Shown here: one piece after another, positions 23,431-54,316 of the stretch
Position numbering within the stretch: the first letter of the stretch is position 1
How the letters are laid out: each line of letters begins with the position of its first letter
Source: Mesostigma viride
Taxonomy: Eukaryota > Streptophyta > Mesostigmatophyceae > Mesostigmatales > Mesostigmataceae
NCBI GenBank assembly: GCA_009746045.1
Contig: RPFO01000165.1
Location: 1,155,046 to 1,219,045 of the forward strand
DNA: 64,000 bases
Direction of reading: 5' to 3'
Notes under the pieces: model-generated
Databases searched by the model: none
What the model saw: the letters and a program-made list of their open reading frames with translations, nothing else
What the model was told of the DNA's origin: nothing
Program-made: the position numbers and the translations under genes

Positions 23431-23555
23431 CCCTAGGCACACCTGGAATTGTACTACATTTTTCAAATTGTACTTCAGTTTTGAAAGTTGCATTTTCATG
23501 CATTTAAAGGGTCAACTAAAGTCTTTGAGGAAAAAAAGTTTGTCGGCGGCCGTGG

Positions 23556-24098
23556 CACCGTTGCACCGTTGCACCGTTGCACCGTTGCACCTCAAATTGC
23601 ATATATGCACACACCTTTGCACATGCAATTGTTATCCATGGGATTTATGTAGGTGGATGGGTCATGCAAGGGTTACCTAGATGCTCATGACACCGTGCCA
23701 CCGTGGCGCCGTTGCACCGTTGCACCGTTGCACCGTTGCACCTCAAAATTATTGCATATAAACACACACCTTTGCACATACAATGGTTATCCATTGGGAT
23801 CTATCAAGGGTAATGGGTCATGCAAGGGTTACCTAGACATGCTCATGACACCGTTGCATCGTGGCATCGTGCCACCGTGCCACCGTGGCACCGTGGCACC
23901 GTGGCACCGTTGCACCGTTGCACCGTTGCACCGTTGCACCTCAAATTGCATATAAACACACACCTTTGCACATGCAATTGTTATCCATGGGTTTTATGTA
24001 GGTGGATGGGTCATGCAAGGGTTACCTAGATGCTCATGACACCGTTGCACCGTTGCACCGTTGCACCGTTGCACCGTTGCACCGTTGCACCGTTGCAC
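23556..24098 (+). repeat. Left subterminal (CACCGTTG)n arrays
   Basis: Four clusters of the octamer CACCGTTG (about 23556-23592, 23690-23742, 23848-23941, 24039-24098) alternate with a spacer starting CCTCAAATTGCATAT. The whole forms a higher-order tandem repeat of roughly 150-200 bases. The orientation is opposite to the arrays at the right end of the transposon. Confidence 0.95.
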
Positions 24099-24386
24099 CT
24101 CAAATTGCATATAAACACACATCTTTGCACATGCATTGGTTATCATGGGGTATATTGCATGCATCAACCAAAATAATCACATGTCATTGAATCACATACT
24201 GAACGTAAATCCATTTCCGTGTAAAACATGGCCACTAGCAAACACATGTATCTTATGCCCACCATTATGCAACATGACCATGCATGGACAGTTGGCATGT
24301 TGGGCTTCATTCTTGCAACAAGACTAGCATGCTTGACAGGACAAAGAGACGCCTTTACTCCTATCGAAGCTTTCACACATTCCCCA

Positions 24387-25909
24387 TCATTCCCATGCTT
24401 CCTCCTCCTCATCATCGCTACTCTCGCTACTCTCACAAACAAAAGAAAGTTGGGGCTCTTCCGCCCCCGTCTCAGCGTCGGCTGCGGCACCATCCTGAAA
24501 AAACTTTTCGCGGCCAAAGGCATTAGCCGCATGAGGGCACCCGCAGATGAACTTTAAGACTTCCTCCAACGTGGTGTACGTCGCTCCCTTGCCGTCGGAC
24601 CAAACCGTCTCGATCTTCAAAGCCCCGCCATTCTCATGTACTTCTGTGACCCACCCGTGAAAACGGGTCTTGGCAGCGGCCCCACAAGGCGCACAGCCTT
24701 CTCCCTTTCAGCGCGTGCAGCCCGTGCTCAACAAAGTGTGCCGCACATGCAGCTTTTGACGTCGCTGCAGCAGCTTGCTGCGTTTGAAAACCAGCAAAGT
24801 GCACGTGTGGATGGTCATCTAAGGCCTGGAGGGTTGCACGAGATAGCTTACGTGCTGCTGTCAGCGACGGAGTGTGGACAGCCTGCCCTGATGCACCAAC
24901 TGTCCAGTGTTGAACGATGATTTCCGATGCCGACACCGTCAGGCCCGGCCCACCGCCTAGCTGCGAGCGAGAGCTTGTTAAACTGCCCTTCCCAGGAGGG
25001 TGAGTAAAACACGGAAACAGTAAGAGTCCCGCGTGAACGAACAGTAGACGCATCCATGACCTTCACCAAGAGCTCCTCTGGCCAGGGCATGCCTTCCCCG
25101 CACGTCACCGCAGGTCTCTTGATGATGAGAAAGTCTCCGCGGGAGATAATGCCGGGATTTACGGAAAAAATATGATCCGCAGTCGCAATGGTCCGTGCAC
25201 CACCGGTGGCATCTGCAGGAGAATTGGAGGCAACTCCAGTAGGAGGATTGGAGGCAAGCGTGGCAGGCGTGGCAGATGCGGCCGGCAGGCGCTCAGCCTC
25301 GCGTCGCGCCCGGTGAATGGCAGTTTGCACCTCGTGCCGGCGGTTGCCTGCATGGCTGATAATTGGGTGCAGCGGCGCTTCCAAAGCACGGGCAGCCCGC
25401 ATCACCGCCTGATCCCCTGCACTGTGGAGGCAAAAAGGGAGGGGCTTGTGTTTTTGCTGCTCCCTGCACTCCGTCAGAGCTTGGGTCATGCGGTCAAACA
25501 CCGACGCTTCTTCTTCCACTTGCTCCGGCTCAGCGGGGAAGCCGCGGATCTCCTCGTTGAGCTCTGCTTGCTTTGCATCCGTCATGATGTCTGGAAACAC
25601 TCGGTTGAGTTTAGAGCAATGACGGCGGATTGCGCGATCGCCATCCCAATCCGCAAACGCGGCAACACCTGGGCTGCCCTTGGGCGCCTTGGTCGCCTCC
25701 ATGACTAGCACGCTGCGGAGCTCTTTGCCATCACTCACACGCTTCGAAGAGACAGTAACCATGTCGCATGGCTCCTCGTTCGGCCCAAGAGGCCTCCAAC
25801 AGTTGGCGGGCACATCAGCTAACGCCTCTGCCGTGGCAAGTCGGTAGCGCAAAAAGCAGTCATCACCAACGTCCGCCCCTGCACCTTCATCGTGATGGCC
25901 GAATAGCTC
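24387..25909 (-). pseudogene. Transposase-candidate gene, C-terminal part
   Basis: Continuing the gene that starts at 42549, the frame reads ELFGHHDEGAG from 25909 and stays open for 354 codons to 24848 (SVADSST). A better continuation shifts frame near 24960 (HPHVHFAGFQTQQAAAATS) and again near 24675. It then ends in KTRFHGWVTEVHENGG and an acidic tail (ESSESSDDEEEEAWE) with a stop at 24387. The two shifts suggest decay or sequence errors. The segment abuts the left LTR of the Gypsy element at the GATAT duplication (25910-25914). The strand 24099-24386 holds nothing recognisable. Confidence 0.6.
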
Positions 25910-25914
25910 GATAT

Positions 25915-26694
25915 TGTAACAAGCAAAAATGACTTTGTTGTTACATCCTTTGTTTTGTGAATGTTTGGCTTTTATTCGAGGACTTTTGGATCAGTATTGA
26001 GAAAGTTATGAGGTTTCTAAGACGACGGTACTTGGAGCTGATACTTTGTCAGCCAACTGATAGGAACCCTCATTGGTCGTGGCCTGATCCACGTAGGGTT
26101 GTAGTTTGTTGGCTGATACTACTGATAGGAGCCCTCATTGGTCGTGGCCTGATCCACGTGGGGTTGTAGTTTGTTAGTTGGTACTATTGAGTCTTAAATG
26201 CTCCTTTGGGACTTCAGTGCTCACGACAGATTTGGGATCTCATGGAAAGATTCTGCCAGGCTGTGTGTGGTGTTGTTCTGTTTTGTGTGACTAGGATGGA
26301 TACGAAGATCTTGTATAGGATTCCATGGTTCTGATTGGTTCTCTTCAGGCTAAGGTTGGAGCAAGCTCGACAAGCACGTCGATATCAAGGACGTGGGGTC
26401 GCCATTGTTGCTACGTTGGTTTTGATTCACCATGGTATAATAAAGCTTGGCTTTGTTGTCCAATCCATAAGAGCCCCTTGGCTATAGACGACCTTCAGTT
26501 CCACAGAGGCCGTCTATACACGAGCTTGTCTTTGTGTCTACAAGGGGTTGTGATTCCCTAAATCACGTGCTGTGGAATTTCCATCTCAACGTTGCTCGGA
26601 TACTTGAAGTTCTGCGACTCAGGAAAGCAACCCAGGTAAAAGATCTTTCATATTGGACTGTGGATGATGTTGATGATCATTTTTAGTCGTTACA
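25915..26694 (+). repeat. Gypsy 5' LTR
   Basis: Starts TGTAAC and ends GTTACA. Differences from the 3' LTR that I see: one extra G near 26229, and single substitutions near 26303, 26600 and 26624. Confidence 0.95.
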
Positions 26695-26696
26695 TT

Positions 26697-26708
26697 GGTA
26701 TCGGAGGA
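26697..26708 (+). promoter_or_regulatory. Gypsy primer-binding site
   Basis: TGGTATCGGAGG, two bases after the LTR, is the usual complement of the 3' end of initiator Met tRNA with minor changes. The same sequence follows the Copia LTR at 15516. Confidence 0.8.
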
Positions 26709-27068
26709 TCTCTACTTTGGTGTTTCTCTTGAAGTCGCAACCTTCCGGGTAGTACAACGTTGATCAGATGTCTGTCATCCGAGAAGATTCATAGAGTTGC
26801 GGAAAACTTACGGTGTTACAGACTGAGACACATCCTGATGTGACTGTCTTGCTCTGTAACACTAGAAGTCAGCCGTAACCGTTGTCTCTACTAGGCAGAC
26901 GATCGCGACTCCATGTGGAAGTATGAGTAGTTCGAAGACACAATCACCTTTACCCCCTACTAATCAAGGTTTGGAGATCCGTCATCATCTCTGGAACCCA
27001 TTGCTAGGGAAGGTGCTGAGACAACTGCTCGTACTCCACGGCGTCAACTTGATTTCAACCGTACTTCT

Positions 27069-28430
27069 ATGTCTGAAGTGAGGCGGCCCTCGTTGTCCAT
27101 AGGGCCCAAGTTTTCCGTCATTGCATCTGGTCTCCAACCAGGCGAGCCATCGCTGACAGGCGTGGGTCGAGGAGCGTCACTGTCGCCCAGGATTCCAAGC
27201 GCGCGAACAAGTCCTGTGCGGAGTGCATCTTCTTCATTTCTTTTCCCGCTAAATACCACGCCTGGAAGAGACGGGACCAGACTTGCAGCGGATCGCCTCT
27301 CAGCAGCTAAAATCAGATTATTACACGATGAACAACACGCAGCGATGTATAGAAAGATGGTGGAGGAGGTGGAACAGGATGTGGGAAGACTTCGTCAGAG
27401 AATTGAGGAGGAGGAGGCGGCCATGCGTGACATGGTTGCTGGATTGGGGAGAGAGGCTCCTCGGTTGGGTGACGGAAGGGTTTTACCTAATAGTACCGCA
27501 GTTACTACGAGGAATGAGACGCAGGATAGCGATAGGCAGGATCCAGCGCAGACGACCTCGGTCACCTTCACCACCCCCGCCAGCGACGTCCCCGTGACCG
27601 TCACTATACCACCGCATCAAGGTTCCGCCCCGCCATTTCCAAAAATCGAATCCGTAGACAAGCTGTCGCTCACCAATCTAACCCACCGCAGTTTCGATCA
27701 TTTCTCTACTCGATTCCAGGATGTGTTCGCTATCCACTTTGCTAACTACGGCAAACGAGCGGAAGAACGACTTTCCCTGGACATCCAGAAGAAGATGGTT
27801 CGACAGCGAATGAGCGACAGTGCAGCCGACAGGTTTGATGAGTTTTTACGATCCTCAGCAGGTAATACTTGCAAGGATTTGCCATCTCTCATGCTTTCAT
27901 TTCGACGTTTTCTCCTTCCCCAGGACCAGCTCCGTCTGGACCGGGACGCGTTGGCCAACTGTACTCAGTCTGGCCTGACACTACCACAATACGTAGAGAC
28001 GTTTACCAACCTGAGGGCCAAAATCCCCCAGTGCTCTGATTCTGAAGCTCTTCACAGGTTTCTGCATGGGCTCTCCCCTCAAGTCAGGGTGGATATTGAC
28101 AAGCATTTCTCCCCTTTCGACTATGTCGAGTGGAAGTGGGATACTGTGCTGTCTTATGCCCTCACGCTGTGCCGTGTCCCTGACTTTTCCCTCAAGTGGG
28201 AGCCTGCTGCAGGCAACCAGGCGCCTGCTGTTAAGAAGCCCCTGAACCAGCTGAACGCTGTGATGGAGGAGCTCAGTGCCATGGAGCAGTCCAAAGGAGC
28301 CTGTTTCACGTGTGGCCAGCTGGGACACTTTGCACGGGATTGCCCCAAGCGAGACCAGTTCCCAAGCGACACCAAGGGTCCTCAGGGGGTTCTTCCATTC
28401 ACCAGACCACCCATTTCCCTCCTGGGGTGA
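27069..28430 (+). CDS. Gypsy gag protein
   Basis: A 453-codon frame from ATG 27069. It has a disordered N-terminus, a coiled-coil-like region (VEEVEQDVGRLRQRIEEEEA, residues about 96-115) and a retrotransposon gag domain (FDHFSTRFQDVFAIHFANYG, then SFRRFLLPQDQ). A CCHC zinc knuckle CFTCGQLGHFARDC lies near residue 413. The product packages element RNA. Downstream frames overlap in other phases, so gag and pol are separated by frame changes in this copy. Confidence 0.9.
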   Translation: MSEVRRPSLSIGPKFSVIASGLQPGEPSLTGVGRGASLSPRIPSARTSPVRSASSSFLFPLNTTPGRDGTRLAADRLSAAKIRLLHDEQHAAMYRKMVEEVEQDVGRLRQRIEEEEAAMRDMVAGLGREAPRLGDGRVLPNSTAVTTRNETQDSDRQDPAQTTSVTFTTPASDVPVTVTIPPHQGSAPPFPKIESVDKLSLTNLTHRSFDHFSTRFQDVFAIHFANYGKRAEERLSLDIQKKMVRQRMSDSAADRFDEFLRSSAGNTCKDLPSLMLSFRRFLLPQDQLRLDRDALANCTQSGLTLPQYVETFTNLRAKIPQCSDSEALHRFLHGLSPQVRVDIDKHFSPFDYVEWKWDTVLSYALTLCRVPDFSLKWEPAAGNQAPAVKKPLNQLNAVMEELSAMEQSKGACFTCGQLGHFARDCPKRDQFPSDTKGPQGVLPFTRPPISLLG

Positions 28431-28670
28431 GCCAGAGCGACCACAGGGCACAGCCTGGGTTTAGACCCAACTTCCAGGCTTCGGGCAAGGGACCATTCCA
28501 GCCCAAGGGATTCAACAGGCAAGACAGGCGTCGGATGGTCAACGCCCTGTGGCACCTCCTAGCAGAGGAGGAGGAGGGAGAAGGGGAGGCAGACGGCATA
28601 GAGGATCAGCAGGTGCAGCCTTCAGTGGGGAGCTCGTCTCAGATCATCCTCCTGAGCTGCCAAAAAACTA

Positions 28671-31600
28671 GTGGAGCCCCCAGGACTACGTCCAGCGGTG
28701 GAGTTAACTGGTTTGCCTGCTGTGCATGTCCGTCCTGTGAACAACTTGTCTGCCTCTGATTCCACCACCCCATTGGGCCCTCCTATTCCCAGTCAACTCT
28801 TGAAGTTCCAGGCTAGGCTGTTGAACGTGCCAGTCCCTTTGGCTCAGCCTTTATGTCTCTTCATGATTGACTCAGGTGCAGGAAGTAACTACATTTCCAC
28901 TTCCTTGGTGCAGGAGCTGCATCTACCAGTGCTCCCCCACCCTGTGCCTGTTAAGGTCCAATATTCTGATGGTAGGCAGAGTAACTCACCTGGCTACGTG
29001 CAACTGCTTTTTCAAGTGTGCTCACGTCAAACCTTGTCTGTCACAGCAGATGTCATTCCACTCACTGCTGCTGATGTGATTTGGGGATGCCATGGTTGGA
29101 GTCTGCTAATCCTGCCATCTTGTGGTCTGAGAAGGTGGTGCAGTTTCAGGATGGGTCAGTGTGGGACGCCACCACAGTGATTAAGGGGGGAGAAAGACCA
29201 GTCACAGAGTGCTGTTCTACTAATGAGGCTGTCAATGATGGGAGAGGGGTTGCAGGTGCCAAGGAGGACGTCAAGGTGCCTTCACTGGAAGAGAAACGTG
29301 CTGCCTTACTTAAGCACGTATGGTCTGCCAATCACACCTTGTCTTACCTGGCTACTTACCCAGTGGAACACGTCTTTCTCTTACAGTTGGTTCCTAACTC
29401 ACCCTCTGATGAGACTCATGGCCACACGGTGAATGCTGTGAACCCAGTACCAGCTGTCACAGAGGAGGAGCAGAAGCTGCATGATGCCCTTTTGGACAGG
29501 TTTGCTGCCATTTTTGAGGACAAAATGCCACAGTACCCCCTGAAGGGCCAATCACTCATGTCATCAAGCTTGTGGATGGTGCCAGGCCTCCCTTTGTTCC
29601 CATGTACAGGATGGGGCCAGCTGAGATGGCAGAGCTGAAGGTGATCTTGACAGGCTGTTGGAAGCTGGACTCATTCTTCCTGCCAATAGTCCTTTCAGCT
29701 CTGGGTGTTTGCTTGTCCCCAAGCATGATGGTGGATGGCGGTTGTGCATTGATCTGAGAGGCCTGAACAAGGTCACAGTGAAGTCCAAGTATCCCTTGCC
29801 ACGGATTGATGAGCTGCTAGAGAGGACAGCTGGATCATCTTACTTCACCAAGTTTGACCTTAGACACGCGTTCTGGCAGATCAGGATAGCTACTGAGGAC
29901 ATTCCAAAAACTGCATTCTCCACACCCTGGGGTCAGTTCCAGTGGACTGTGATGCCCATGGGGGCCTCCAACAGCCCAGCTACTATGCAGATGTTTGTGA
30001 ATGCTATCTTTGGCCATCTGACAGGGAACTCTCTGCCTCAGATCTCCCCTGATCTCAGGAATCCCAGGTTCAAAGACATTGCCCACCTGTGTGACCCTGC
30101 AAGACCCGTGTTCAGGACCTGCGTGGTGGCCTACATGGACGACATCCTGGTGCACTCAAAGACGTTCAAGGAGCATCTGGAGAACGTGGAGGAGGTCTGA
30201 AGGTCATCCAGCACTACCACTTGTCTGTCAAGAGGTCTAAGGTGGAGTGGGGGCATGAAGTGGGGTTCCTAGGGTACAAGTTGAGTTCCTTGGGTATGAC
30301 ACCTGACAATGCTAAGATTGCTGCCATCCTTGAGTGGCCTGTGTTGCAGTCTGCACATGATGTCAAGTCCTTCCTGGGCATGGTGGGGTGGTACAGGCGT
30401 TTTATCCCTGACATGGCTGCCATCTCCACCCCCTTGCTTGAGTTAATCAAGAAGGATGTTCAGTTTGAGTGGACAGATAGGTGTCAGCAGGCCTTTGACC
30501 TGTTGAAGCAGAAGCTCACATCCACCCCTGTGCTAGTGGGTCCCAACCCAGATCTACCTTATCAGGTTAGGTCAGATGCCTCTCAAGGCGCCATAGGTGC
30601 TGTGCTGATGCAAGACCATGGCTATGGACCACAGCCAGTGGAGTACATGTCTAAAACCATGAGCTCAGCTGAACGTAACTACCCTGTACACGAGCAGGAG
30701 TTGCTGGGTTTAGTGGTAGCATGTCACAAGTGGGAGCATCTGTTGAAGGGAGCTCAGTTTTCTGTGGCTAGCAGTGCTACAGATGGGCTAGGGCAAGAGT
30801 CTATCACCCTGATGACTGACCACAGGCCCTTGGTGCACGTGCTAGAACAGAGTAGGATGAGTAAGAGGATGGCTGGGTGGATGGAGTACCTAGGGGGATT
30901 CTATCCTTTCTCTGTGCAGTATGTCCCAGGATCACAGAATGTGGTGCCAGACGCCCTCTCTAGAAGAAGGGATCTGATGGGACATTTCACGAGGATCTGG
31001 ATATTTGTGCTGCCATGGTTTCTGTAGTAGAGTGTGGTGCTGTCACCAGGGCACAGGCAGCTAACCAGCAAACCTCCAAGCTGAGCCCACACCCTGTAGA
31101 GGCTAGCTTTAGTCACGAGATGCTCATTGACCAGGGCTTTGTCCCAGGGTCGACAGGCGTCCAGGGTGGGGGTCAGTCACTGCAGAGCAGTCTTAGGGTT
31201 CTGCTAGCAGCCAGCCCACTCTCACTACACAACCAAGCACAGAGAATCCTAGGAGGGGGAAGGGACGGCCCAGGAAGTGGATACTGGAGCCAGGGATGCT
31301 GACCAAGTCTAGAGGATTGGCAGCTGAGATCAAGGGGAAGTCACGTACACCTGTGGCTGATGTTCTGTCATCCAAGCATCTAGTCACTAGTCACCTGCAG
31401 GAGGGTGAGGTGCTGCAGCTGCAGCCTTTAGGACCTGGCAAACAGCTAGTCCTGCCTAACCCTATGAGTATAGCCCTGCTGGACGTGATTAAGGCCTTCA
31501 CTAAAACTGAGGACCTGGCCACTAAGGCCATTCAGGAAGGAAGCTTTGGTAACAGACCTGTGGAGTACTGGGAGGGAGTCCTGTATGTCCACACCCAGGA

Positions 31601-33032
31601 TGCAGATCATGTAGTAACCAGGAAGGTTATGTGCCAGAAATGGCCATTCCCACTGTGTTGCATTGCTTCCATGACGACGTGACTGCATGTCATCCTGGGT
31701 ATGCTAAGCTCTCCATGAAGTACAAGAGAGGTTTTGGTGGCCTGGCATGTTTCGTGATATCAAAGCCTATGTGGCTTCCTGTGACTCATGCCAAAGGAAT
31801 AAGGTTAGGACTCAGGCAGTGCCTATCTTTCCTATGGCCATGCCTATTCCCCTTCGACCCTGGATCAGTGTGACCATGGACTTCATTTGTGGCTTGCCTG
31901 TTTCTGATGCTGGCAATGACAGGATACTAGTGGTGATGGACAGGCTGTCTAGAATGTGCCACCTCATCCCCTGCAATGCCCATCTCACAGCTGCCCAGTG
32001 TGTAGAGTTGTTCATGAAGGAGTGTACAGATTGCATGGCATGCCACGTGTAATCATCACTGACCAGGATCCCTTGTGGATGTCTGGGTTTTGGAAGTCCT
32101 TCTTTGACATCCTAGACACTAAGTTGGCCTTTGGAGTAGCATACAGGTGTGCCAGCACGGGGGCTGTGGAGAGGCTGAACCGTATTGTACGGGAATGCCA
32201 GAAGCACTATTGTACCCATGATAACAAGGAATGGGACAAGAAACTTCCCTTCATAGAGTTTGCCATCAACAACTCACCCCTGGCTCCTCACCAAATGTCT
32301 CCATTTGTCATTTGCCATGGCCAGTGCCCCTTGACTCCATTTGACCTGGAGTTACCTGATAGGGATGCTGAAGGCCCCTTCAGAAGACGCCTAACCTCTG
32401 TCCACCAGTTGATTGCATCCTTCCAGGAAGCTCACAGTATGGTGGCTGCTCAGATGTTGCATGCACAGGACAAGTATTTAAACAATGCTTGGCAACAGAT
32501 GTTGGCTACACACACCTTTGTGGCTCCTGGTGACCTGGTGCTCTTGGAGGCTAATCGTGTGCTACCTGAAAAGGAGCAATGCAGGAAACTGCAACCCTTG
32601 TGGTTGGGACCTTACCCTGTCCTGGACACCTTCCACTATGGGACTGTAGTTCAAGTCCAGGTGCCTTCCCACTGGAGGCTTAAGACTAACGTGTTTCACC
32701 TGGCCCAGCTCAAACTGTATAAACGCAATACCTTGCAGGGACGCCTTTCTGCTCCATTACCATTTGAGCTGGATACTGAGGGGGAGAGGATATATGAAGT
32801 GGAGCAGCTGGTGGCTCACAGAGTCAAAGGAAAGGGTAGGACCAAGCAGCTGCAGTTTAAGGTGCACTGGAAAGGAGAGTTAGAGTCTACTGCCACATGG
32901 CTGTGGTTGTCTGACTTGACTCACTGCCATGAAGTGGTCCAGGAGTATTGCCAAAAGAAGGGGCTCACTCTTCCTTCTTGGTATACTGAGTTGGTGCAAA
33001 CCACTGCTCCCCTTCCTATATCTCAGGACTAA
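28671..33032 (+). pseudogene. Gypsy pol: protease, RT-RNase H, integrase, chromodomain
   Basis: The frames read in sequence give a protease (LFMIDSGAGSNYIS, near 28860) and RT (KFDLRHAFWQIRI, near 29850; VVAYMDDILVHS, near 30125). RNase H follows (VRSDASQGAIGAVLMQD, near 30565), then integrase with an HHCC finger (HCFHDDV...CDSCQRNK) and core residues in VTMDFICGLP, ITDQDP and GAVERLNR. A C-terminal chromodomain (IYEVEQLVAHRV...FKVHWKG...TWLWLSDL) ends at 33032. Frame changes occur near 29080, 29545, 29645, 30199, 31030, 31740 and 32020. The ones at 29080 and 30199 are fixed by a single inserted T, so they may be recent mutations or sequencing indels. Confidence 0.9.
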
Positions 33033-33159
33033 CGAATGGTTTCTTCGTGCATGCTGTGTGGTCCCAGATGGAGGAGGAGTTCACGTACCCCAACTTGGGC
33101 CTGGGCGCCACCACGGAGGAAGGGGTCACGGGTATGCATCCAGAAACCCCAACCCCATG

Positions 33160-34188
33160 AGTTATGTGGAATCCCTGTTTGACAGTATTGTCAGGCGTGA
33201 CCTTAGGAGGGGTCAGCAGATGGATACCATTAACAAGCTCTTGCATTCAGTGATCTCCAAGCAGGATAAGCTACAGGAGCTTCTTCAGGGGTTGTCCTTG
33301 TCCCAGCCCCAGATGGGGAGTGGTGTTAACATAGCTCTCAGCTCCAGCAGCACTCCCATCATTCAGATTCCTCGTCATGTGGTACCTGTCAAGAATGTGG
33401 TGGCCTATGTGGATCACAGGAAGTGCACGGGACCTTGTGAGCATTGTGAGACGCTGGCCAAGGCAGTGGCTGCCCTTAACAGGGAGGAGGGGGAAGTGAG
33501 CCCTGAGGGTTATGTGGAGGAGGTCTTGTCTCAGTTGCACACCAGCCTGTATGAGATTGGCTCTCCTTTTGTGGGCCACCTGTTGCACAGGATGTTTGCC
33601 TTGACTCCAGGACCTGAGATTGACATGAGACCTGCAGAGGGGCAGGATATGTTGACCACCTTGCCTGAGGCTTTGAAAGGAGCCTTCATGCAGTTCCAGC
33701 CAGTGAGCATGGGTGAGGCCTCCTACATGGAGTTGTTGGAGTTTTCAGTGCAGCAGGGAGATTTTGACTTGGCTCCTTCTTCTTCCAGCTCGGTCAATGG
33801 GTGCTTCCCTTTGGAGACATCCAACCTTTTCTGCAGCCCAGGGTTGCCTAAGTTCACCATGGAGCTCAAGGTTCGTCTGACCCCATTGAGGGTGTTGGTG
33901 CCTTTGACAGGTGCTAAGTGGTCAGTGGTCAAGACCTTTCTCCAGTTCTGGTGGGCGTACAGGTCATGGGTGAGCAGGCACAAGACGTCTTCTACTTGGG
34001 TGATGGATCCTGAGAGCCAGTCTGTGGTGCTTCTCTCCTACCCAGGGACATGCCTGCGTTATGTTGCCCAGATGGCAGCAGGGGCTGCAGAGACGTGCAT
34101 GGTGCTGCAGGTCAGCAGGAACTGGCCAGACTTGGTTCACATGGTGGAGCAGTTTCCCTTGTTTGGGACCAGGGGCAAGGATGGGTGA
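33160..34188 (+). CDS. Extra ORF downstream of Gypsy pol
   Basis: A continuous frame of 342 codons from ATG 33160 (MSYVESLFDSIVRRDLRR), in the position where some Gypsy elements carry an env-like gene. It has a likely coiled coil (TINKLLHSVISKQDKLQELL), a CxxC-rich patch (CTGPCEHCETLAKAV) and a C-terminal W-rich segment. I see no signal peptide or clear membrane segment, so there is no support for an envelope function. The frame stays open upstream to 32929 inside pol, and a short frame MEEEFTYPNLGLG starts nearby in another phase. Function unknown. Confidence 0.65.
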   Translation, partial: SYVESLFDSIVRRDLRRGQQMDTINKLLHSVISKQDKLQELLQGLSLSQPQMGSGVNIALSSSSTPIIQIPRHVVPVKNVVAYVDHRKCTGPCEHCETLAKAVAALNREEGEVSPEGYVEEVLSQLHTSLYEIGSPFVGHLLHRMFALTPGPEIDMRPAEGQDMLTTLPEALKGAFMQFQPVSMGEASYMELLEFSVQQGDFDLAPSSSSSVNGCFPLETSNLFCSPGLPKFTMELKVRLTPLRVLVPLTGAKWSVVKTFLQFWWAYRSWVSRHKTSSTWVMDPESQSVVLLSYPGTCLRYVAQMAAGAAETCMVLQVSRNWPDLVHMVEQFPLFGTRGKDG

Positions 34189-43807: not shown

Positions 43808-43989
43808 GCAGCATCGCAGGACCCAGTTGCGCACAAGTGCCTCGTCAAGTATCTGGGATATTTGGGGGTGCTCGTGAAGGGAGCCGGCAGCCTCTCGATT
43901 GCATCCCGGGGTGCTACTGCGGCCAAGCCAGTTGTGCTTCACATGCTCGACGTGGGCAAGGGTTTTCCAACCAACAGCAGGTTCATCAA
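43808..43989 (+). pseudogene. Rightward gene, exon 2, 5' half
   Basis: Phase-0 acceptor, then AASQDPVAHKCLVKYLGYLG... to PTNSRFI. At 43990 the reading enters the Copia-type LTR. The last five bases, ATCAA (43985-43989), are the target duplication. Confidence 0.7.
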
Positions 43990-44368: not shown

Positions 44369-44751
44369 CCCACTTTAAGTTTTCTTTGGGTTTCAACAGA
44401 AACACACATAGCCATCAAATGGACGCAGCCATTCCCAATGCCTTAAAAAACTGTCAGATAACCTACTAGGACCCAAAGGTCACCTCACACATGTACAAGA
44501 GATGCATTAAAAAGGCCCCATGTCTCAAGCATGGTTTCTTAACTGAGTGAGATGGGTGCTCCAGGCCCCAGCATGTCATGGTCATCCAAACAAGTGTCTC
44601 ACAAAATTTTATTCAATAAATAACACATTCATCATGTCCCAACTTTCTAGACCAGTGCTTCTCACTGTCAGAAAACTACCCAGCTGCCACTGCAGCCTTT
44701 CAGCTGCAGTATTAGGCAGGGGGTCATGGGCTAACATGTACAATGTGCCAG

Positions 44752-46143
44752 TCACTTCAGACTGTAACCAGGGTTCATCAACCCATACAAGACCTGGTAT
44801 TGTGGTCCTGCTGCTTGTGGCACCTTGGTCAGTGCATCTGCAGCATTGTCTTTGTCCCTGACGTGGGCTTTAGACTCCAGGTACTTGCATTCCTGTTTTA
44901 GCACAATCCAATCCAGGTCCGAGTGTACAGCCAAAGGATTGGCAAGGAAAGAGATGATAGATTGAGAGTCAGTCAGCAAATGTGCTTTCACTCCTGCAGA
45001 GCTACCAGCCTGGTGTTGAAGCCAGACCAGCAAGTGATTGAGATACCTTGCATGCAAGACAGAAGATACCACAGCCCTGCATTCAGCTACATTGCTACTC
45101 ACAGCTTTCCTCTTGTGCAATCTACTGAACCAGGAGACTAGTGACTTCTTCCCACCTTGGTTATGCAGGAAAAACAATCCAGCCTCTCTGGCTTGAACCT
45201 TGGTAACTACCCTGGACTCCATTGAACTATCCATCATGCACGTGATGTGAATGGGAGTAAACAGGTCCAGTGAGTGAAGCATCAAAGGTGGACCATCATG
45301 CAACAACTGCTTGATTGCCCGTGCTCCTACCTCCTGTAGTACCTCATCATCTACCCTGCTCACAAAAGCCAGGTGGGGTGCACATGTAGCACATAGCCAA
45401 CCAAGCTTGCCTCTAATGGTAGGGCACATGTCAGGGGTGATGTGAACAGGCAGGACATCCAGACAAGACTTAATGTATTCAGCAGAGGCCTGCATGGAAC
45501 AAACCCAGCTGCCCTGCTGCTGCAGCAACTCAAGCATCATGCCACAGAACTTGACTGGCTCCTTGCCCAGCTCTAGCTGCTTGCCAATCTCAAAACTGGC
45601 AGACACCTGAGCTATGAAAGCATCCACTGCAGCTCTAGGACCTGAGATTAACTGATCATCCCCATGCCAGACAAACATCATCATTCCATCAGGGTGTGGG
45701 ATGACAAACAGGCAAGGGTCAATGTCATCATAGGTGGCCCCTAGCTTCATGAATACCTCCTGTGCAGACAGCCTAAAAATTTTTGGAGCTGACTGCAACC
45801 CTTCAACCCCCAGGTTTGGCCTCAACAAGGGTTGAACAATATCCCTGTGCCACACCTTAGGAGTATTCACCACGTATACCTGACCTCTCCAGACCTGCTG
45901 TGCTATGGCAGGGTCCCCCTTTAGAAAGGCTCTTTTGATATCTGTGGCTTTACACACATAATCCTTCCCTGTATTAAGCTGATGCAAAAACAAGGAAAGC
46001 AACACCTTGAGAGACGTTTGCTGAATACCAGGAGTATAAAGCTCAGCCTCTGTCAGCTCTGTAGAGCCCCTGAACTCAGTAACACATGGCCTAGCATGGA
46101 AAATGGGTGGTCCCCCATCAGCCTGAGGTTTATGCTTGCACAC
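44752..46143 (-). CDS. Copia RT and RNase H
   Basis: A 463-codon frame. RT motifs: KATDIKRAFLKGD (catalytic Asp), and FVWHGDDQLISG, in which the usual YVDD is HGDD. RNase H: a Ser/Asp patch near SSMESRVVTKVQARE, then NVAECRAVVSSVLHARYL and LLTDSQSIISFLANP, as in Copia elements (AEY...DSQ). The frame begins just after a stop, so in an intact polyprotein it would join the protease-like region at 46193-46905. Confidence 0.9.
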   Translation of the reverse strand: MCKHKPQADGGPPIFHARPCVTEFRGSTELTEAELYTPGIQQTSLKVLLSLFLHQLNTGKDYVCKATDIKRAFLKGDPAIAQQVWRGQVYVVNTPKVWHRDIVQPLLRPNLGVEGLQSAPKIFRLSAQEVFMKLGATYDDIDPCLFVIPHPDGMMMFVWHGDDQLISGPRAAVDAFIAQVSASFEIGKQLELGKEPVKFCGMMLELLQQQGSWVCSMQASAEYIKSCLDVLPVHITPDMCPTIRGKLGWLCATCAPHLAFVSRVDDEVLQEVGARAIKQLLHDGPPLMLHSLDLFTPIHITCMMDSSMESRVVTKVQAREAGLFFLHNQGGKKSLVSWFSRLHKRKAVSSNVAECRAVVSSVLHARYLNHLLVWLQHQAGSSAGVKAHLLTDSQSIISFLANPLAVHSDLDWIVLKQECKYLESKAHVRDKDNAADALTKVPQAAGPQYQVLYGLMNPGYSLK

Positions 46144-46192
46144 AAACTTTAACCTTAGCTTCTTGGCCCAGCTGGCATAGCATCAAGAGGAG

Positions 46193-46905
46193 TCACAGGT
46201 GGTGTGTGTGTGGGACTACGTGCATCTGGAACAACCCACTCCTCCCTGGCTTTGGTAAAAGCCTCAGCCACTTAAGAAACCCAATCTGCGTCTGGCAGTC
46301 CCGTACAATATCATCATAGGACAGGGGAGACATGGATGCAACATCCCATCTACCAAGCCCAAACGCTGAAGGGTGTAGCTTTTGAGAGTGTATGAGGTCC
46401 TCCACACACGGTTCCTGACCTGGGAGGTACTTGGGCTTAACTGCATTGATGGCAGCATCCAACCCAGTGCTAATCTGGCTCAAAGGGATTTTAAAATGAT
46501 CTAGAGGCACCTGTCCTACCCCTGCCACACTCAACCTCCCAGCTGAGATGACAACACCAGGGTAAGATACAAAAGGTTCCCCTAACAGGGCATTCCCTGA
46601 GTAACCCTCAACCACCTGAAATGGAGTGGGCATACCCAAGATTTGAATGCTCACCTGACCTTTGACCTGCATTTTGGTTTTGCCTGAAAAATCTGACACT
46701 CTAGCCCATGGTGAGGCCTTCATTTTCAGACCAGATACAGCTTCTGCACTGATGATACTCACCTGTGCTTGGGTGTCTACAGCCAAAATACTAGGATCTT
46801 GACCTGCATCCCCTACAGCATTGACCTGTGCTGTACCTGTTGCCACAACTGCTTTAGTGTTGTGTGCCTTGTGCAAGGCCTTAAGAATCTCAGCAAATGA
46901 CTTCC
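46193..46905 (-). pseudogene. Retropepsin-like domain between integrase and RT
   Basis: The frame DPVVPRKSFAEILKALHKAH continues to ILAVDTQAQVSIISAEAV and NALLGEPFVSYPGVVISAGR. This resembles an aspartic protease (D-T/S-G-A...S.IS, and a later LLG) with the Gly replaced by Gln. It follows integrase directly and precedes RT. In known Copia elements the protease precedes integrase. The frame change from integrase lies near 46905. Confidence 0.55.
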
Positions 46906-48110
46906 TGGGAACGACAGGATCTGCTCTTTTTGTGACTCCTCCAGGTGTGAGGGAGGTGCTACCTGCTGCTCACCCTGTGCACCGTCCTCCTGCCCAGGTG
47001 GACTATTGGGTTGTAGTGGGGCTGCACTACTGAGGAACACAGGAGCTTCTACTGTGGTGCTAGTGCTTGCATCAATGACGTCCTTAGCCAATTCATTGGG
47101 TGAGATCAATCCACCAGACTCCTGCTCTGAATCCATGTCCAAGAATTCTACCCCTGACACGTCTGCCAGTGGTGGGTAATAAAGCTTGAGTCTATGCTTG
47201 CTGACCACACGCTCTCTGTCATGTTGTATAGTGACTGCAGTCCCTTCTTCATGAATTTTGGTGACTACAGCTGGACCGTGCCATCTGGCAGAGTGTGCTC
47301 TTCCTCTGTCACCCTCTCTGAAAAATAACACATGGTCCCCCACTTCAAACACAGGCCTGGCATTGTTTTTGTCTTTCTTTGCCAGCAACTTGGCTAAGTG
47401 CTGCCTTTGTGTGTTGTAGTGAGTGTGTACCTCTGAAGCATAGCTGCCTGACTGAAGGCCAGTTGGGGTGATTTCCCCAAAAGGTGAGGACATTATTGGT
47501 TTGGCGTTTAGCTGGGTAGTCACCCCTGCTGCCCAAGATGCCCTGTCAGCATAGCTACCAGAGTCAGCCAACCTGGATGGCATTTTTCTTATCACATCCC
47601 TGATGGCTCTCATGGTACGTTCTACCAACCCCTGACGTTCATGATCTTGAGCCCCAGACACTTCTATCTTGGGCAGGTCATTCCTGTCCTGGATGCAGAG
47701 AAACTGCTGATCCAGCATTACTTTTTCAATGGGGTGAAAACGTGCCAAGGCTATCTGTAAAGCTCTGTGCAGCTGCTCTTTATCCATCCCAGGCAGGGGC
47801 TCCACTACCACAAACCTTGACCAGGCATCCTTTATGACTAGGTAGTATACCGTGTCCTTCACCACGTGTATAACATCCCCAACCAGTTTGCCTCTAGCCA
47901 GTGGTGGTGTGGCCACATGCCATTTTCTGGGCTTAGGAGCATATAGCTGACATTGCTCACAGTGCTTACGTACGTGCCTGCACATCTGTTCCAGATCATG
48001 GCCTTGTATTTTATTGGCTAGCCTTTCAGCCACAGCCTCATGGCCCATAACCTTGTGCAGTTGCTCTGCTAGAGCACCATACGTGATTACCTTTTCTGCT
48101 GCTGCACTAA
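46906..48110 (-). CDS. Copia-type integrase
   Basis: Frame from about 48110 (SLSAAAEKVITYG), with an HHCC finger (HKVMGHEAV...HCEQCQL). The core includes YYLVIKDAWSRFVVVEP, VMLDQQFLC and HERQGLVERTMRAI. A C-terminal DNA-binding part contains VFEVGDHVLFFREGDRGRAHSARWHGPAVV, which is like Gypsy-style GPY modules. It ends in an acidic/proline-rich linker. The frame formally continues to 46813, but homology passes to another phase near 46905. Confidence 0.8.
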
Positions 48111-48116
48111 GGGAAG

Positions 48117-48482
48117 CTATGGTGGGTCACGCATCATGTGTGACAGTGTCATGTCATATGCCACTTCCCAATCCACATCATCACACTCAGGCAACACTTG
48201 GCAGACAGAAGGTAACAGGAAACCATTTGTGAAAAATGGTGAGGGTAGCTTACAGGTGTCACCCTGGTCTGCCGCCCCCGCGCGGTTGTAGCGCCCTGGC
48301 GTGGTCTTGTTGTGCCTGGGTGCCGTGCAGCGCGCTCCTGCTGCAATGGGGTGACGTGTTTTCCAGCATCCAGGACAAACATCAACGTCAGAACCATAGT
48401 CGGGTTTGCCTTTCCAGCAGTCATCTTTTAGGTGCCCCTTACAAAGGCACCTAGTGCAATGCTTGGTGGGGTCATGAGGCAA
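48117..48482 (-). CDS. Copia gag C-terminus with zinc knuckle
   Basis: CTRCLCKGHLKDDC is a CCHC knuckle, followed by a second Cys group (VCPGCWKTRH). It belongs to gag but is in a different phase from 48556-50133; the switch lies in G/C homopolymers around 48490-48560. Confidence 0.75.
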   Translation of the reverse strand: MPHDPTKHCTRCLCKGHLKDDCWKGKPDYGSDVDVCPGCWKTRHPIAAGARCTAPRHNKTTPGRYNRAGAADQGDTCKLPSPFFTNGFLLPSVCQVLPECDDVDWEVAYDMTLSHMMRDPP

Positions 48483-48555
48483 CCTCTTGTCCCCCCCTGC
48501 TGGCTTAGCACCCCCTGGCTTGCTAGCTCCCCCACTTTGTTTTCTGTTTTTATTG

Positions 48556-50995
48556 TTATTGTTCTTTCCCCCCCCTTGTTTCCACCTCCCCCACTTTTGT
48601 TGTTTTTGTTTTTATCCCCCCCATTACCGCCTTTACCTGGGCTACCAGCGACTGCATCTGCTTCTTGGAGAGCCCCGTACCTGAGGCTTCCTCCCCCTTT
48701 ACCTGCTTCACCTTTCCCTCCTTGGCTGCAGCAGCAAACGGCTCTAGGCATTGCTGCACATAGGCCATTGCCTTCCTAAAGTCCTCCCACTTATCCTTTA
48801 GACCTGCCAGGATTACTGACAGGGTGGTGGGGTCCAGTTCTGCCTTTTGTAGCCATAGGTGTACTAGGTACTTGGCATTGAGCTTCTTCAGCTCCTCATC
48901 TCCCTCTATGTACATGACATATTTTTTGTTGTCACTCACATAGTCACGCTTATTGACCTTATAGGCCTCTATCCACTGGAAGCCCTTAAGCACTTCTAAG
49001 TGCTCCCCCGTGGTAACAAGTGCCCTAAGATCAACCATGAACTGCGCCCACAACACATTTTCTGCCACGTCTACCCCGCTGCTGGCACGCTTTTGGTACA
49101 ATTGTACCAACTGCTGGATAGGCTTGGCAGATTGATGGATGGGTGTGGACGCACGTAGAGAGGCAAACCAATCACGGACATTGTCGCTAGCATATGCATG
49201 TGACAACTTAAACAACCACTCCCTAGCTTCGTCCTGGGTATGGCCCTCTGGCAAACCCGGAAACACTAGCTTGTCCTCTTTCTTTTTTGGATCAAACCTG
49301 GGCCTAGTCAAGGCCATGGTGGAGGTTGTTGTCGTTCCTGCAGTTGGCGGTTGCTGCTGCTGCTGCTGCTGTTGCTGTCGCTGCTGCTGCTGCTGCCGCT
49401 CCCCGCCCTCGTGCCGTGTTGGTGCAGACTCCTGGGTGCCATGTCCACCCCCGCCCTGGTTTCCCCCCCTCTCCCCGTCATCCGCCCCCTCGTCCCTCCT
49501 CCGCTTTGGCTGGGGTGCGCATGCCTCTGCCTGCGCCCTTCGCTTGGCCGGCTTCAGCGATGCCACTAGCCTGGCCACCGTGTCGGCCAACGTCGCCTGC
49601 TCGCCTGGAGACAGCGGGGTATCTGCTTCCAGCATGGCTTGCGCCAGCTGAAGCTGATCAATGAGGTCCTCCCTGTTGGACAGGTTAGACGGTCCGGCTT
49701 CACCAGGCTGCCTGTAAACACGCGTGCGTGCGGCAGTGCCATCACGGTTGGTGATGGTCTTCTTAGGCTGCGACAAATAATAAAACATTTGGCTTGCAGA
49801 AACATCCTCATCCGGCCCAAGGCCAAACTCGACTCTCACCGCTTCACCAAGCGGTCCCCTCACCGCTGTCTTACGTGCATGCTTGAGCATGCGTCGTCGC
49901 TGCTTCAGGATGCGCTGCTCCATCCTTCCCACATTGGCTTCCCACCGTGCCAGCGAGCGTCTGTACCGTTCCTGCGCCTCCGGCCTGCCAGGCGCCTCCA
50001 GCTCAGCCATATGCTGCAGCTTCATCGCCTGCGCCTTTTTCCACACCCTGAGTTCGCGGACCATCCTGTCCCGGCGCACCTGGGTGATCGACATTTTGAG
50101 CTTGATGCGCTCCGTCAGCGCGATTTGCCTCACCCGCTCCGCATGCTCGCGCTCCTTCTTGGCCTCTGCCGCGGCCCTCCGCGCCTGCCGACGCTGCTTG
50201 TCGGCGTGAACGTCTCCATGCGCTTCTGCGCTTCACGCTCCCGCGCCGTCATTGCCGGGGTCATGAGGATCTCGTCCTCAGCAGATGCCCCCGACGGACC
50301 TGTCAAAGAGAACTCCGACTCCTGATGCACACCTAGGTGTACCTTCGGCTCACGAGACCGACGCAAGCTTTTAAAACATGCAAGGTCCCCCCGACGCATC
50401 ACCTCAAACTGCTCCTCGCCAGAAGCCAGCTCACTGCTGTGAAACAACGCCCGGCGCACGTTCTCAGCATCCGCCCTCTGCTGGGCGCGAGCACGTGCGT
50501 GCGTGTCCGCGCGCCGAAGCTCCCGCTCCTCGCGCTCAGCCATCGCCCTAGCGAGGCCTTCATCCGCGGCCACCTGCCGCGAGCGTGCGTCGTCCTGCTC
50601 CTCGGCTGAGGAACCAGGCTGGAGCCCATACAGCTCCATGGACTCCTCCTCTGCAGGAGGTGCCGAAGGTCCAACCCCCGCCGCTGCAGCTGTCGGGGCG
50701 TAAGGAGGACCCCTCGGCCTGTTGACCACAGGCGTGGATCCCCTCCCCTGCGGATACAGGGGCACTCGCAGCACCACGCTGCTGTACGAACCATCGGACA
50801 AGTGGCCCGATGAAGACGTGTCCGACGACGTCGGGTCAGCCTCCATAGACTGATTGAAGCTCCTCGCCGCCCGCTCAATCTCTGCCTGGGCGGCAAGCTC
50901 CGAGTCGGACGTCCCGACGATGAAGACGTCGGAGTGCTGGACCGGCTCCTTGGTCGCATTGGAGCCTTACCCTTGTTCGCATTTGGGTTAGACAT
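48556..50995 (-). pseudogene. Copia-type gag, three phases
   Basis: From ATG 50995 (MSNPNANKGKAPMRPRSR), switching phase near 50905 and near 50190. The N-terminus is acidic and Arg-rich with long helices. A Gln run is coded by CAG/CTG repeats near 49350-49400. Then comes a gag domain: REWLFKLSHAYASDNVRDWF, then VLWAQFMVDLRALVTTG, then KYLVHLWLQKAELDPT. It ends KVGEVETRGGKEQ at 48556. About 800 residues is long for Copia gag. Confidence 0.75.
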
Positions 50996-51098
50996 TTTTC
51001 AAAAAAAACTGGAGGTAGAAAAATGGAATGGGTTGTTTTTGTTCGCGAAATGAACGCTCGTCGTCTGTTGTGTGTATGTTTTTGGAGTTTTTAATGCA

Positions 51099-51477
51099 AG
51101 TTATGCAACACAAAGCTTGGAATGCTTGGGCACTGCCAAATGGCGTGTGTGTGCTTGAACGACGAGACACCTTGGCATTAGGATAATGTGGCACATATAC
51201 TGCTGGCCAGCCGTCAACGATGGCTGGCCAGACTTTGCGTAAGTTAAACTAACTTACTGATCCTGGACGGACTAACCTATCAGTTACAACCTGATCTAGT
51301 CAGTCCTAACATGACAACTACAGTCCCGGTACTGAGGTACCGGCTCATCACATACTGAGTACAGCCACGTGTCCATGCCACGACTGTTCTAGTCCAGCAC
51401 CGTCCCAGTACCCAATTGGGCGCCGGCGGTGCTGGCACGTGTCCACTTAGGCTACAGGCGGGAGACTTAGACTAACT
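51099..51477 (-). repeat. 5' LTR of the Copia-type element
   Basis: Right-hand copy; transcription would run leftwards from here into gag, whose first ATG is at 50995. Confidence 0.95.
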
Positions 51478-51482
51478 ATCAA

Positions 51483-52065
51483 CGGTATTCCTCAGATAAC
51501 CGTTCCAGAGCACAACATCACACGAGCTCACAACTTCTACACGCTGTCTGATGAAAAGGATTCCCTGGCCCAACTAGACACCAAGAGTGACTGGCCTCCG
51601 CTGTATGTTTCGTGCAAAAAGGCTGGCTCTCGTAGCACCGCCAAGGTGACGTCGTTCTCCATCGGTGACATCTGCAGTCATGCGGATCCTGAGCTAATGC
51701 GTGACCTGCGTGCCACTCCCACGGGCAACACCGCTGTGCGGCTTGTCATCCTCGGACTCGCTTGTGTGAGGGCAGCCAGCACTGGCCATGAGTACCAGTC
51801 CTTTGTGGCGTTGGTGCGTCCCATTTACAGCTGCGAGGAAGGAGAATGGACGGCTACCTCATTCGCCTCCGGTGAAATCCGTTTAGCGTGGTGCCGACCA
51901 TATAACTTGACGGTTGACCCTGCCGCCACCGCCGAATTGCATTGCCATTCGAGTACTACCTTGGCGGATGCCATGGCGGACATCACGTCAGTGTTTACCC
52001 GCCAGGAGTCGCGCATCAACCAGTTAAGGAGCGCGACCAACAAGACCACCGGGCAGGGCTATCTT
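51483..52065 (+). pseudogene. Rightward gene, exon 2, 3' half
   Basis: Continues the frame of 43808-43989 across the ATCAA duplication (RFI then NGIPQITVPEHN). It stays open through RLVILGLACVRAAS and SFVALVRPIYSCEEGEW to a phase-0 donor CTT|GTAAGT at 52066. The fold is unknown to me. A VxLVRPxY...W.RPYN pattern hints at a beta-rich BAH-like reader, but this is weak. Confidence 0.7.
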
Positions 52066-52283
52066 GTAAGTATCTCAGATCGGTTTTGCATTGTTGACAT
52101 TCATATGCTAGAACATGCCATGCGCAATCCAACCGCAGCCGAGCGCAAACCACACTGGCGCATATGATCAATGTGCATACTAGAAGACACCATCAGGAGC
52201 ACTCTATTTGTAAGCACCATAAAACATTAATTATTGTTGATGTAAAATGTCAATCTCTGTATGCGTGCATGTTTACAATTCAG

Positions 52284-53485
52284 GTGCTCGCTGTCGTCCC
52301 GCCTGCTCCATCCGATGAAGATGAAGATGAAGATGAAAGCGGGGGCGATGCCAGCTATGACCTGGAGGATGAAGAGGAGGTGGAGGAGGAGCACGATGAT
52401 GGGGAAGGGGGGGGTGACGATGGCAGGGAGGAACAAACATCACCCGTCAAGCCCAAGAAGCGCGCCTCGAAGGCGGCGGGGGGGGGGGCCAGCGGAGCTT
52501 GCGCCCTGCACGCCAGCTTGAATACCAGGGCGGGAAGGCACTGCCGCCTCGCGCAGCAAAGTCAGCACCGTCCGAGAGTGCGATGCCAGCAGCTCCCCCG
52601 GCAGCTCCCCCGGCAGCTCCCCCGGCAAGGTGGCTAGCGCCCCTTACTCAGGGGTTGCAAGCAGCACAGGCAGCAATCGCAGAGCTGACGGACTGGGTGG
52701 GGTTTCAAGCGAAGCAAGGGAGGAAGAAGGCGCCGCCGTCTGTGGCTATGCAGATCGCTGATTTGAATGCAAAGGTTTCCAAGTGCCAATCATCATTGGC
52801 AGCGCGTGCAAAGCCGGCTGCCGCCCCAGAGAACCCCGCGACTGCGAAGCTGAAGGAACAGGTCAAATCCCTGACGGAGAGGGTTGATGCTTTGGAAAGG
52901 GAACGAGTGCCATGCACGCCTGTTGAATGTGCTCCAACCTCAAGCCGCGGCACGGAGATTCACCGGCCGACCATTCCTGCTGCGCCTCCCACATTGCGGC
53001 AACGTGAAGGCTTCACCGGCATGCAGGGGGCAGAATGGCAGCCGGCACGCCGTGAGCCAGAGCCGCGCAAGCGCGCACCCGCGATCGATGGGGCAAGGAA
53101 GCTGGATTGGCAAGATGAGCCAGAGCCGCGCACGCGCGCACCCGCGATCGATGAGGCAAGGAAGCTGGATTGGCAAGATGAATCGCATGGCCTGTACGAG
53201 CCTTATGACTCCTATTATATGGCCCACGGTGAGCCCTTGCAGGGCGCTTACCGTTATGCCGCCATGAGGGAGCCAGATAGGCCACATTATGCTGAGGGAC
53301 ATTATGCAGCAACTCAGCATACTCGTCTCACGACTCACAGCAACTTTGATGATGAACGCATGCGTGCTCGCAGCGCCCCCCGCCCCCCGCCCCCCGCCCC
53401 TCCATCGCGGAAAAGGCATCAGCCGTACTCGCAAGATGCAAATGAGCGAGGGGAACCAGTTTATTATGGTTCATGTTCATGTTGA
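52284..53485 (+). pseudogene. Rightward gene, exon 3, with a frame change at an 11-G run
   Basis: Acceptor ACAATTCAG, phase 0. It encodes an acidic Asp/Glu run, then a basic patch KPKKRASKA. At 11 consecutive G (52478-52488) the frame must shift by one missing base. It then reads ALPPRAAKS, proline-rich repeats, a coiled coil (TAKLKEQVKSLTERVDALER), two copies of a 21-residue unit (EPEPRKRAPAIDGARKLDWQ and relative) and a Tyr/His-rich tail ending YYGSCSC at 53485. The layout suggests a nuclear DNA-binding or accessory protein. Confidence 0.65.
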
Positions 53486-53744
53486 TCGTGTTTGCACCTC
53501 TTTGTCAGTTTTCAGCCATTTATTCAGCTTTTTTATGCTGTGATGTATTAGTTGGCGAACAAAGGAATTGTGGTTGCGATCACGTAGTACTTGCTTCTCC
53601 ATATGTTACATGTAGGAGACATTGGAGACAATGCTGATAATCAATTAATATTTGTCTCAAGTAATCATCAATATTTTATTTTGCCATGTGCTTGCATTAC
53701 TTGCGTAGGAAAAGTCAAAAAATGATGTGTCAAGACATGTCACG

Positions 53745-54192
53745 GTGGCACGGTGCAACGGTGCAACGGTGCAACGGTGCAACGGTGCAACGGTGCAACG
53801 GTGCAACGGTGCAACGGTGCAACGGTGCAACGGTGCAACGGTGCAACGGTGCAACGGTGGCACAGTGGCACCCCACGTTGGGCAGTGCTTGTGGGCAATA
53901 TAACATTAGTATTGGACGTTATGCTACCTCGTGACACCATACAGCATCATAAAATGGTAGTTTTATGGTGCAACAGTGCAACGGTGCAACGGTGCAACGG
54001 TGCAACGGTGCAACGGTGCAACGGTGCAACGGTGCAACGGTGGCACAGTGGCACCCCACTTTAGGCAGTGCTTGTGGACATTATAACATTAGTATTGGAC
54101 GTTAGGTTACCTCGTGACACCATACAAAATCATAAAATGGTAGTTTTATGGTGCAACGGTGCAACGGTGCAACGGTGCAACGGTGCAACGGT
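53745..54192 (+). repeat. Right subterminal (CAACGGTG)n arrays
   Basis: Three octamer clusters (about 53745-53870, 53969-54047 and 54149-54192) alternate with a spacer containing TAACATTAGTATTGGACGTTA. The orientation is inverted relative to the left arrays, so the transposon is symmetric. 53486-53744 is noncoding. Confidence 0.95.
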
Positions 54193-54316
54193 GTCAAAAC
54201 ATGATGAGACACTTACCTCCTACCTTTGGACCTAAGAGAGGTACAAAATAACAAAGTTGAAAAAAAGTCAATTTGTACTAGTGGTGGAGTACAATTCCAG
54301 GTGTGCTTAGGGGTGT

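Follow-up and report, generated by a model that had tools for sequence, protein, structure and literature searches.

The window analysed here is a stretch of 64,000 nucleotides from the streptophyte Mesostigma viride (assembly GCA_009746045.1, contig RPFO01000165.1, positions 1,155,046 to 1,219,045 of the forward strand). Positions 23431–54312 of this window are one DNA transposon, which has a long interspersed nuclear element (LINE) as its host site and has been enlarged by nested insertions. We hold with considerable confidence that it is a class II transposon moved by excision and reinsertion through a DDD transposase, the product of a gene with the Pfam domain DUF7869, and that its group is probably an undescribed superfamily. 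The observations behind this reading are the ends of the element, target duplications, empty sites and paired ends of further copies, together with the predicted fold of the core of a sister-family protein and invariant aspartates; that the DUF7869 protein performs the cutting is what we infer.

Ends and insertion site of the element

The element is bounded by 25-bp terminal inverted repeats (TIRs), 23431–23455 and 54288–54312, which are identical at 24 of 25 bases; in 200 shuffles of both 201-base end regions the best agreement was 17 of 25. The trinucleotide GTG abuts both ends on the outside, and the LINE flanks joined through one GTG give a single reading frame, MVIGASSTPPLPRLLDG, over the junction. 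These joined flanks align over the junction with the uninterrupted LINE at 62694–62982 of the window (87.8%) and with the LINE copy in L011 (88.9%; L and C numbers denote loci and contigs of the genome). The initial annotation had described an element at 23431–54313 with 25-bp TIRs matching at 24 positions, a 3-bp target duplication and a LINE that rejoins in frame once the element and one GTG are removed. All of this was reproduced except the right boundary, which lies at 54312, as 54313–54315 are the second GTG.

Copies across the genome

The assembly (439.9 Mb, 2243 contigs) was searched with the TIR pattern at up to two mismatches, which gave 223 matches (112 forward and 111 reverse) and none with the backward control; the copy number is roughly 110. 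Among the 100 TIR ends listed, of the 223, 78 form 39 convergent pairs, spaced 5.5–10.1 kb apart in 30 cases and with a median of 7.86 kb over all 39. Forty left ends were scored, that of the window copy included, and 20 of the remaining 39 were retrieved as 10-kb regions, comprising eight coding-type copies, 11 non-coding copies and one mosaic (L018). Both ends lie inside the 10 kb in 11 of these 20, so that with the window copy 12 insertions could be inspected for target duplications. An exact 3-bp duplication flanks ten of the 12 (nine of these 11, plus the window copy), and agreement extends over 4 bp in one of the 12; the duplicated triplets (AGT, CAA, ATG twice, GGA, CCC, ACC, TTT, AGG and GTG) have no common motif.

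Empty sites could be recognized as well. L014 is inserted in the same LINE as one that is nested in the window element, and its joined flanks form an ungapped alignment with window positions 36728–37027 in which 299 of 300 bases agree, so that this stretch is a nearly identical empty site; the joined flanks of L011 match positions 1093–1318 at 83% over the junction. The initial annotation regarded a lack of further copies with the same ends as its refutation and called for copies of 8–9 kb with 3-bp duplications and for empty sites, and these are present: L013 (8586 bp) and L016 (8673 bp) are uninterrupted, which compares with about 8.8 kb for the window element minus its nested insertions.

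Eleven of the 40 scored left ends have one identical score, as a recent burst would give, the comparison being of scores and not of sequences. The non-coding copies (L009, L014, L022, L027 and others, 7.4–9.1 kb) have in common with the coding copies only the two ends and a central octamer palindrome, in blocks of about 0.7 kb at the left, 0.3 kb at the centre and 0.5 kb at the right, around other DNA. Because these copies are mostly 94–99.5% alike among themselves, the retention of the three blocks may reflect one event rather than repeated selection. Head-to-tail neighbours lie 2 bases apart on C446 (199478–214340) and 83 bases apart on C480 (20249–70824), and the L024 copy is inserted in sequence that, by eye, resembles a tyrosine recombinase gene.

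The probable transposase gene and its predicted catalytic core

In the large protein, DUF7869 (PF25273) alone among Pfam families exceeds its cut-off, with E-values of 2.6e-9 in the window and 3.8e-11 in the first frame of an insertion-free copy; the DUF7869-like protein of the initial annotation is real. In L013 and L016, minus-strand frames of 580 and 575 codons are open, and between them lies a short interval whose borders look like splice sites; open frames were checked in these two copies and, for the first frame, in L012, and the splice sites of both genes of the element were read by eye, from the DNA alone. Gapless full-length alignment holds for the first frame in five of the eight coding-type copies and for the second in seven. 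That the two frames form one gene is supported by a likeness between the second frame and the C-terminal regions of large proteins from other families (L034, E 7e-7; L032, 4e-4; L030, 0.001; L031, 0.039). The window copy has LINEs in the predicted intron, a Gypsy-like element in the second exon and frameshifts in both exons, and because of these nested insertions and shifted frames it is most likely dead.

We modelled the DUF7869 core of the sister-family protein L034 (predicted local distance difference test score, pLDDT, 73). The predicted core is RNase H-like, and its best structural matches, among the 50 listed, are mariner transposases (Mos1, Metnase/SETMAR) and retroviral integrases. No CACTA, RAG or Harbinger structure is among these 50, an absence that excludes nothing, and a sequence search of PDB chains gave no match. 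An alignment of 10 proteins has invariant aspartates, D84, D176 and D215/D217, at the three catalytic positions, and a CxxC at 26/29, ahead of D84, in a segment that is probably zinc-binding. The Pfam model of DUF7869 covers the second half of this DDD core, and a motif GHTHxDxDQ is conserved here.

The second gene and the octamer arrays

A second gene is oriented opposite to the transposase gene. Its protein matched no Pfam family over its cut-off in scans of the window and of an insertion-free copy, and comparison with the second genes of the L030, L031, L032 and L034 families found no similarity at E < 0.5. Octamer arrays stand at both ends and between the genes, and each gene reads away from an array of the same orientation; the two divergent genes and octamer arrays of the initial annotation are real. 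The starts of both genes, compared by eye, are alike in DNA (42640–42740 and 43300–43390) and both encode APPGQEN..DTGPVSV, as would be expected of a larger inverted duplication that takes in the central palindrome.

The features of the element, including its nested insertions, are collected in Table 1. These insertions form three blocks within 30.9 kb, and for every block a separate short target repeat was recognized by eye. Elsewhere in the window, open reading frames (ORFs) at 3760–6503 resemble, by eye, a hAT-type transposase with a BED-like start.

Table 1. Features of the element and its nested insertions, in window coordinates (LTR, long terminal repeat).
Feature	Positions	Strand	Basis or remark
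Target-site duplication GTG, left copy	23428..23430	.	Sequence
Left TIR CCCTAGGCACACCTGGAATTGTACT	23431..23455	+	End comparison and genome TIR search
Left subterminal octamer arrays CACCGTTG / CACCGTGG	23550..24099	+	
Transposase gene, 3' part (C-terminal half, similar in other families)	24387..25914	-	Protein comparison
Nested Gypsy-like LTR retrotransposon, target repeat GATAT, breaks transposase gene	25915..35381	+	Family by eye from ORFs
Transposase gene, start of downstream exon	35387..35538	-	Splice site by eye
Nested LINE copies with three 3' ends, flanked on each side by target-like repeat GCTCAATATATAT, in predicted intron of transposase gene	35643..40720 (about)	-	RVT_1 match
Main transposase exon: CxC...C motif, CxxC, DUF7869 core with D/D/D	40868..42570	-	Frameshifted near end in window copy
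Central palindrome with octamer arrays, between divergent genes (arms 42802-42906 and 42981-43085)	42802..43085	.	
Second gene, first exon	43243..43525	+	Start and splice site by eye
Second gene, second exon, first part	43806..43989	+	By eye
Nested Copia-like LTR retrotransposon, target repeat ATCAA, breaks second gene	43990..51477	-	Family by eye from ORFs
Second gene, remainder (about 240 amino acids, then low-complexity C-terminal part)	51483..53485	+	No Pfam family over cut-off
Right subterminal octamer arrays CAACGGTG, inverted relative to left	53742..54193	-	
Right TIR	54288..54312	-	End comparison and genome TIR search
Target-site duplication GTG, right copy	54313..54315	.	Sequence

Further DUF7869 families and relatives

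PF25273 exceeded its cut-off at all 150 scored places of the genome (of 275 candidates), without stops. Our sorting of the retrieved loci sequences gives at least six DUF7869 families: that of the window; its sister L036 (60%); L029/L030/L033/L037; L031; L034; and L032/L038/L039. In all six families scanned, the large protein passes the curated cut-off of 26 bits, with scores of 43.4 to 57.8 bits. Upstream of it lies a divergent, glutamine-rich second ORF in five of six regions of 10 kb each, with none among the four longest ORFs of L033. L030 and L034 have related second genes (E 1e-18), which start with a cysteine-rich stretch that looks PHD-like by eye.

Ends of the L029/L030 family are more numerous in the genome than those of the window family, with 267 right and 265 left matches and none for the backward controls. 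L029 has the TIR GGGTGGTTTTACCGGATTAGGATACATTT and an exact duplication, GCC/GCC, and both L029 and the copy on C347 have termini GGGTGG..CCACCC; for the C347 copy, the flank of L027 shows what looks like an empty site. In L030 the left end reads GTTTTACC.., without a duplication, whereas two further copies of this family show the longer TIR GGGTGGTTTTACC..; the ends of L030 itself are altered. The 3-bp duplication is well supported for the window family and only suggested for the L029/L030 family. L030 and its relatives have ORFs of 1.2–1.7 thousand codons, in which the transposase gene contains long GA-rich repeats; a short hairpin is apparent by eye at the right end of this family.

A protein search with the window's piece gave no match among 7999 candidates scored; a profile (A1) gave two, and the protein P0001 as query gave one more, each among 8000 candidates scored. 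Near the ends of the ENA relatives P0003 (E 0.019) and P0001 (E 0.14) there is a stretch with weak likeness to Tudor domains, under the cut-off in both. P0002, one of the profile matches, whose source label is Mesvir1 (Mesostigma viride), is 89% identical over 15% of the query, in the N-terminal part of the transposase. In this protein of 286 amino acids, the transposase-family N-terminal part (about 120 amino acids) is joined to a cobalamin adenosyltransferase (PF01923, E 3e-40), possibly as a host–transposon fusion gene or an annotation chimera. Searches of viral contigs (9 and 44 pattern matches) and of GTDB genomes (117 pattern matches) confirmed no relative, nor did a search of phages with a query that also included the nested LINE reverse transcriptase, and 14 control genomes gave no match to PF25273; all four results say little about eukaryotes.

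Proposed mechanism

In the mechanism that we propose, the transposase, in which the CxxC segment precedes the RNase H-like core, would recognize the 25-bp ends and cut there. The cut ends would then be joined to target DNA with a 3-base stagger, from which host repair would make a 3-bp duplication that has no sequence in common between copies. The ends, the duplications, the empty sites and the predicted fold are the basis for this step. The product of the second gene would be an accessory DNA-binding protein with the CACCGTTG arrays, at the ends and in the central palindrome, as its binding sites; judged from the position of these arrays, it would bring the ends together and regulate the shared promoter. 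TnpA of Spm provides the analogy for a protein that pairs ends and sets expression, and the second gene and octamer arrays, by this likeness, suggest an Spm-like accessory system. Non-coding copies, which keep the two ends and the central palindrome, would be moved in trans.

The window family and the other DUF7869 families of this genome are probably an undescribed superfamily of DDE/D transposons, in a comparison that covered Pfam and the open-access literature. We lean, with some reserve, towards a broader proposal: that DUF7869 elements form a new eukaryotic DDD superfamily, separate from the superfamilies of the Repbase papers, in which a transposase gene and a divergent accessory gene are combined with the same octamers at the ends and in a central bidirectional promoter, such that one protein pairs the ends and sets expression.

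Alternative explanations

Several observations weigh against transposition by the DUF7869 protein as proposed. Twenty-two of the 100 listed TIR ends have no convergent partner, and L010 and L023 are without matching duplications. Of the three copies of the L029/L030 family inspected at both ends, only L029 has the exact 3-bp duplication: L030 has altered ends and no duplication, and the C347 copy, despite having the outer TIR bases of L029, has only CG (2 bp) in common between its flanks. The modelled protein belongs to a sister family whose core is 30% identical to that of the window family; for the protein of the window family itself AlphaFold2 gave a model of low quality (pLDDT 50.3), which did not enter the fold matching. 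The third catalytic residue is ambiguous between D215 and D217. L010, on C1334, has the left flank of L021 and the right flank of L023, which suggests a chimeric contig or the product of recombination between copies. This chimeric look would also suit the notion that the 30.9-kb unit is itself an assembly artefact. The chance of that is negligible and we reject it on the convergent end pairs and the empty sites, as the same ends pair at 5.5–10 kb in many contigs and the three blocks of nested insertions each have their own target repeats. It is very doubtful, too, that DUF7869 is a passenger or regulator and that some unrelated enzyme encoded elsewhere in the genome moves the element: the non-coding copies do make movement in trans likely, but the predicted DDE fold and invariant aspartates speak for an enzyme, families that differ in their ends have a DUF7869 gene apiece, and no enzyme-like domain is present in the one other gene.

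The remaining alternatives concern classification. A strongly diverged member of the EnSpm/CACTA clade (CMCT: CACTA-Mirage-Chapaev-Transib, with Plavaka, ESTA and Lanisha), its termini and zinc motif drifted beyond recognition, seems to us improbable, for all that the subterminal octamers and two genes resemble Spm with its TnpA and TnpD. The 3-bp duplications would fit, as the clade is diverse and has duplications of 2–5 bp, typically 3 bp, according to PMC12730594. The same paper, however, gives the clade 5'-CA..TG-3' termini in most cases and C(2)C and H(3-4)H motifs common to its members. Here the termini are CCC..GGG, or GGG..CCC in the L029/L030 family, and CA..TG is absent: all 100 listed ends match CCCYA at 0 mismatches (of 223 within two). 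Between the second and third aspartates (D176 and D215/D217) of the 10 aligned proteins neither C(2)C nor H(3-4)H occurs, a finding that depends on the assignment of the aspartates, which the model supports. The best structural matches are to mariner and retroviral enzymes, though the missing CACTA match carries no weight here. A minor but appreciable possibility is that DUF7869 elements are already catalogued in Repbase or Dfam within a known superfamily, such as Harbinger, Zator or Academ, and that only the Pfam name is new; 3-bp duplications occur in Harbinger and in Zator, according to PMC12730594 and PMC10045372, respectively. As far as Pfam families reach, scans of 8, 8 and 4 proteins, in which no transposase family was listed, speak against both placements, and against the second speaks also the open-access literature, in which no description of such elements is found among the matches listed.

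Significance

The analysis offers a candidate function, the catalytic core of a transposase, for a domain of unknown function, and probably extends the known range of eukaryotic DNA transposons by a new superfamily. It also accounts for part of the repeat content of an early-branching streptophyte genome. With two uninterrupted copies that have open main frames, and eleven left ends of the same score, activity is open to direct test, and the three-site octamer layout lends itself to clean experiments on the way in which an accessory protein couples the pairing of ends to promoter control. If our reading is true, other genomes may hold DUF7869 elements unnoticed, because their core domain is labelled only as of unknown function.

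Comparison with known transposon groups

The element has the attributes of a class II transposon of the DDE/D type, namely TIRs, a target duplication, an empty site and a predicted transposase with an RNase H-like fold. With Tc1/mariner (Mos1, Metnase/SETMAR) it has the DDE/D catalytic fold in common. Mariner is a short, one-gene element with a TA (2 bp) duplication, whereas here we find 3-bp duplications without a motif, a length of 8.7 kb and two genes; because none of the 10 triplets provides a TA duplication, mariner membership fails. PIF/Harbinger and Zator agree with the present element in the length of their duplication (here with no common motif) and differ in that no Pfam transposase match was obtained here. 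Harbinger also has a two-protein layout, and the GHTHxDxDQ motif is not known from Harbinger or Zator families.

EnSpm/CACTA elements have TIRs of tens of base pairs, repeats adjoining the ends and two genes, and in all three they resemble the element described here, which agrees with them and the CMCT clade in its 3-bp duplication as well. They differ in their termini, and the genes here diverge from a central palindrome that bears octamers. We do not file the element as CACTA despite this CACTA-like layout, because the CA..TG termini and the C(2)C and H(3-4)H motifs are both absent. The initial annotation had known of no described superfamily with this set of features, which is consistent with the open-access literature among the matches listed; DUF7869 is named in no open-access paper found. 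Pfam gives no function for PF25273, and here the domain is part of a predicted DDD core inside a mobile element.

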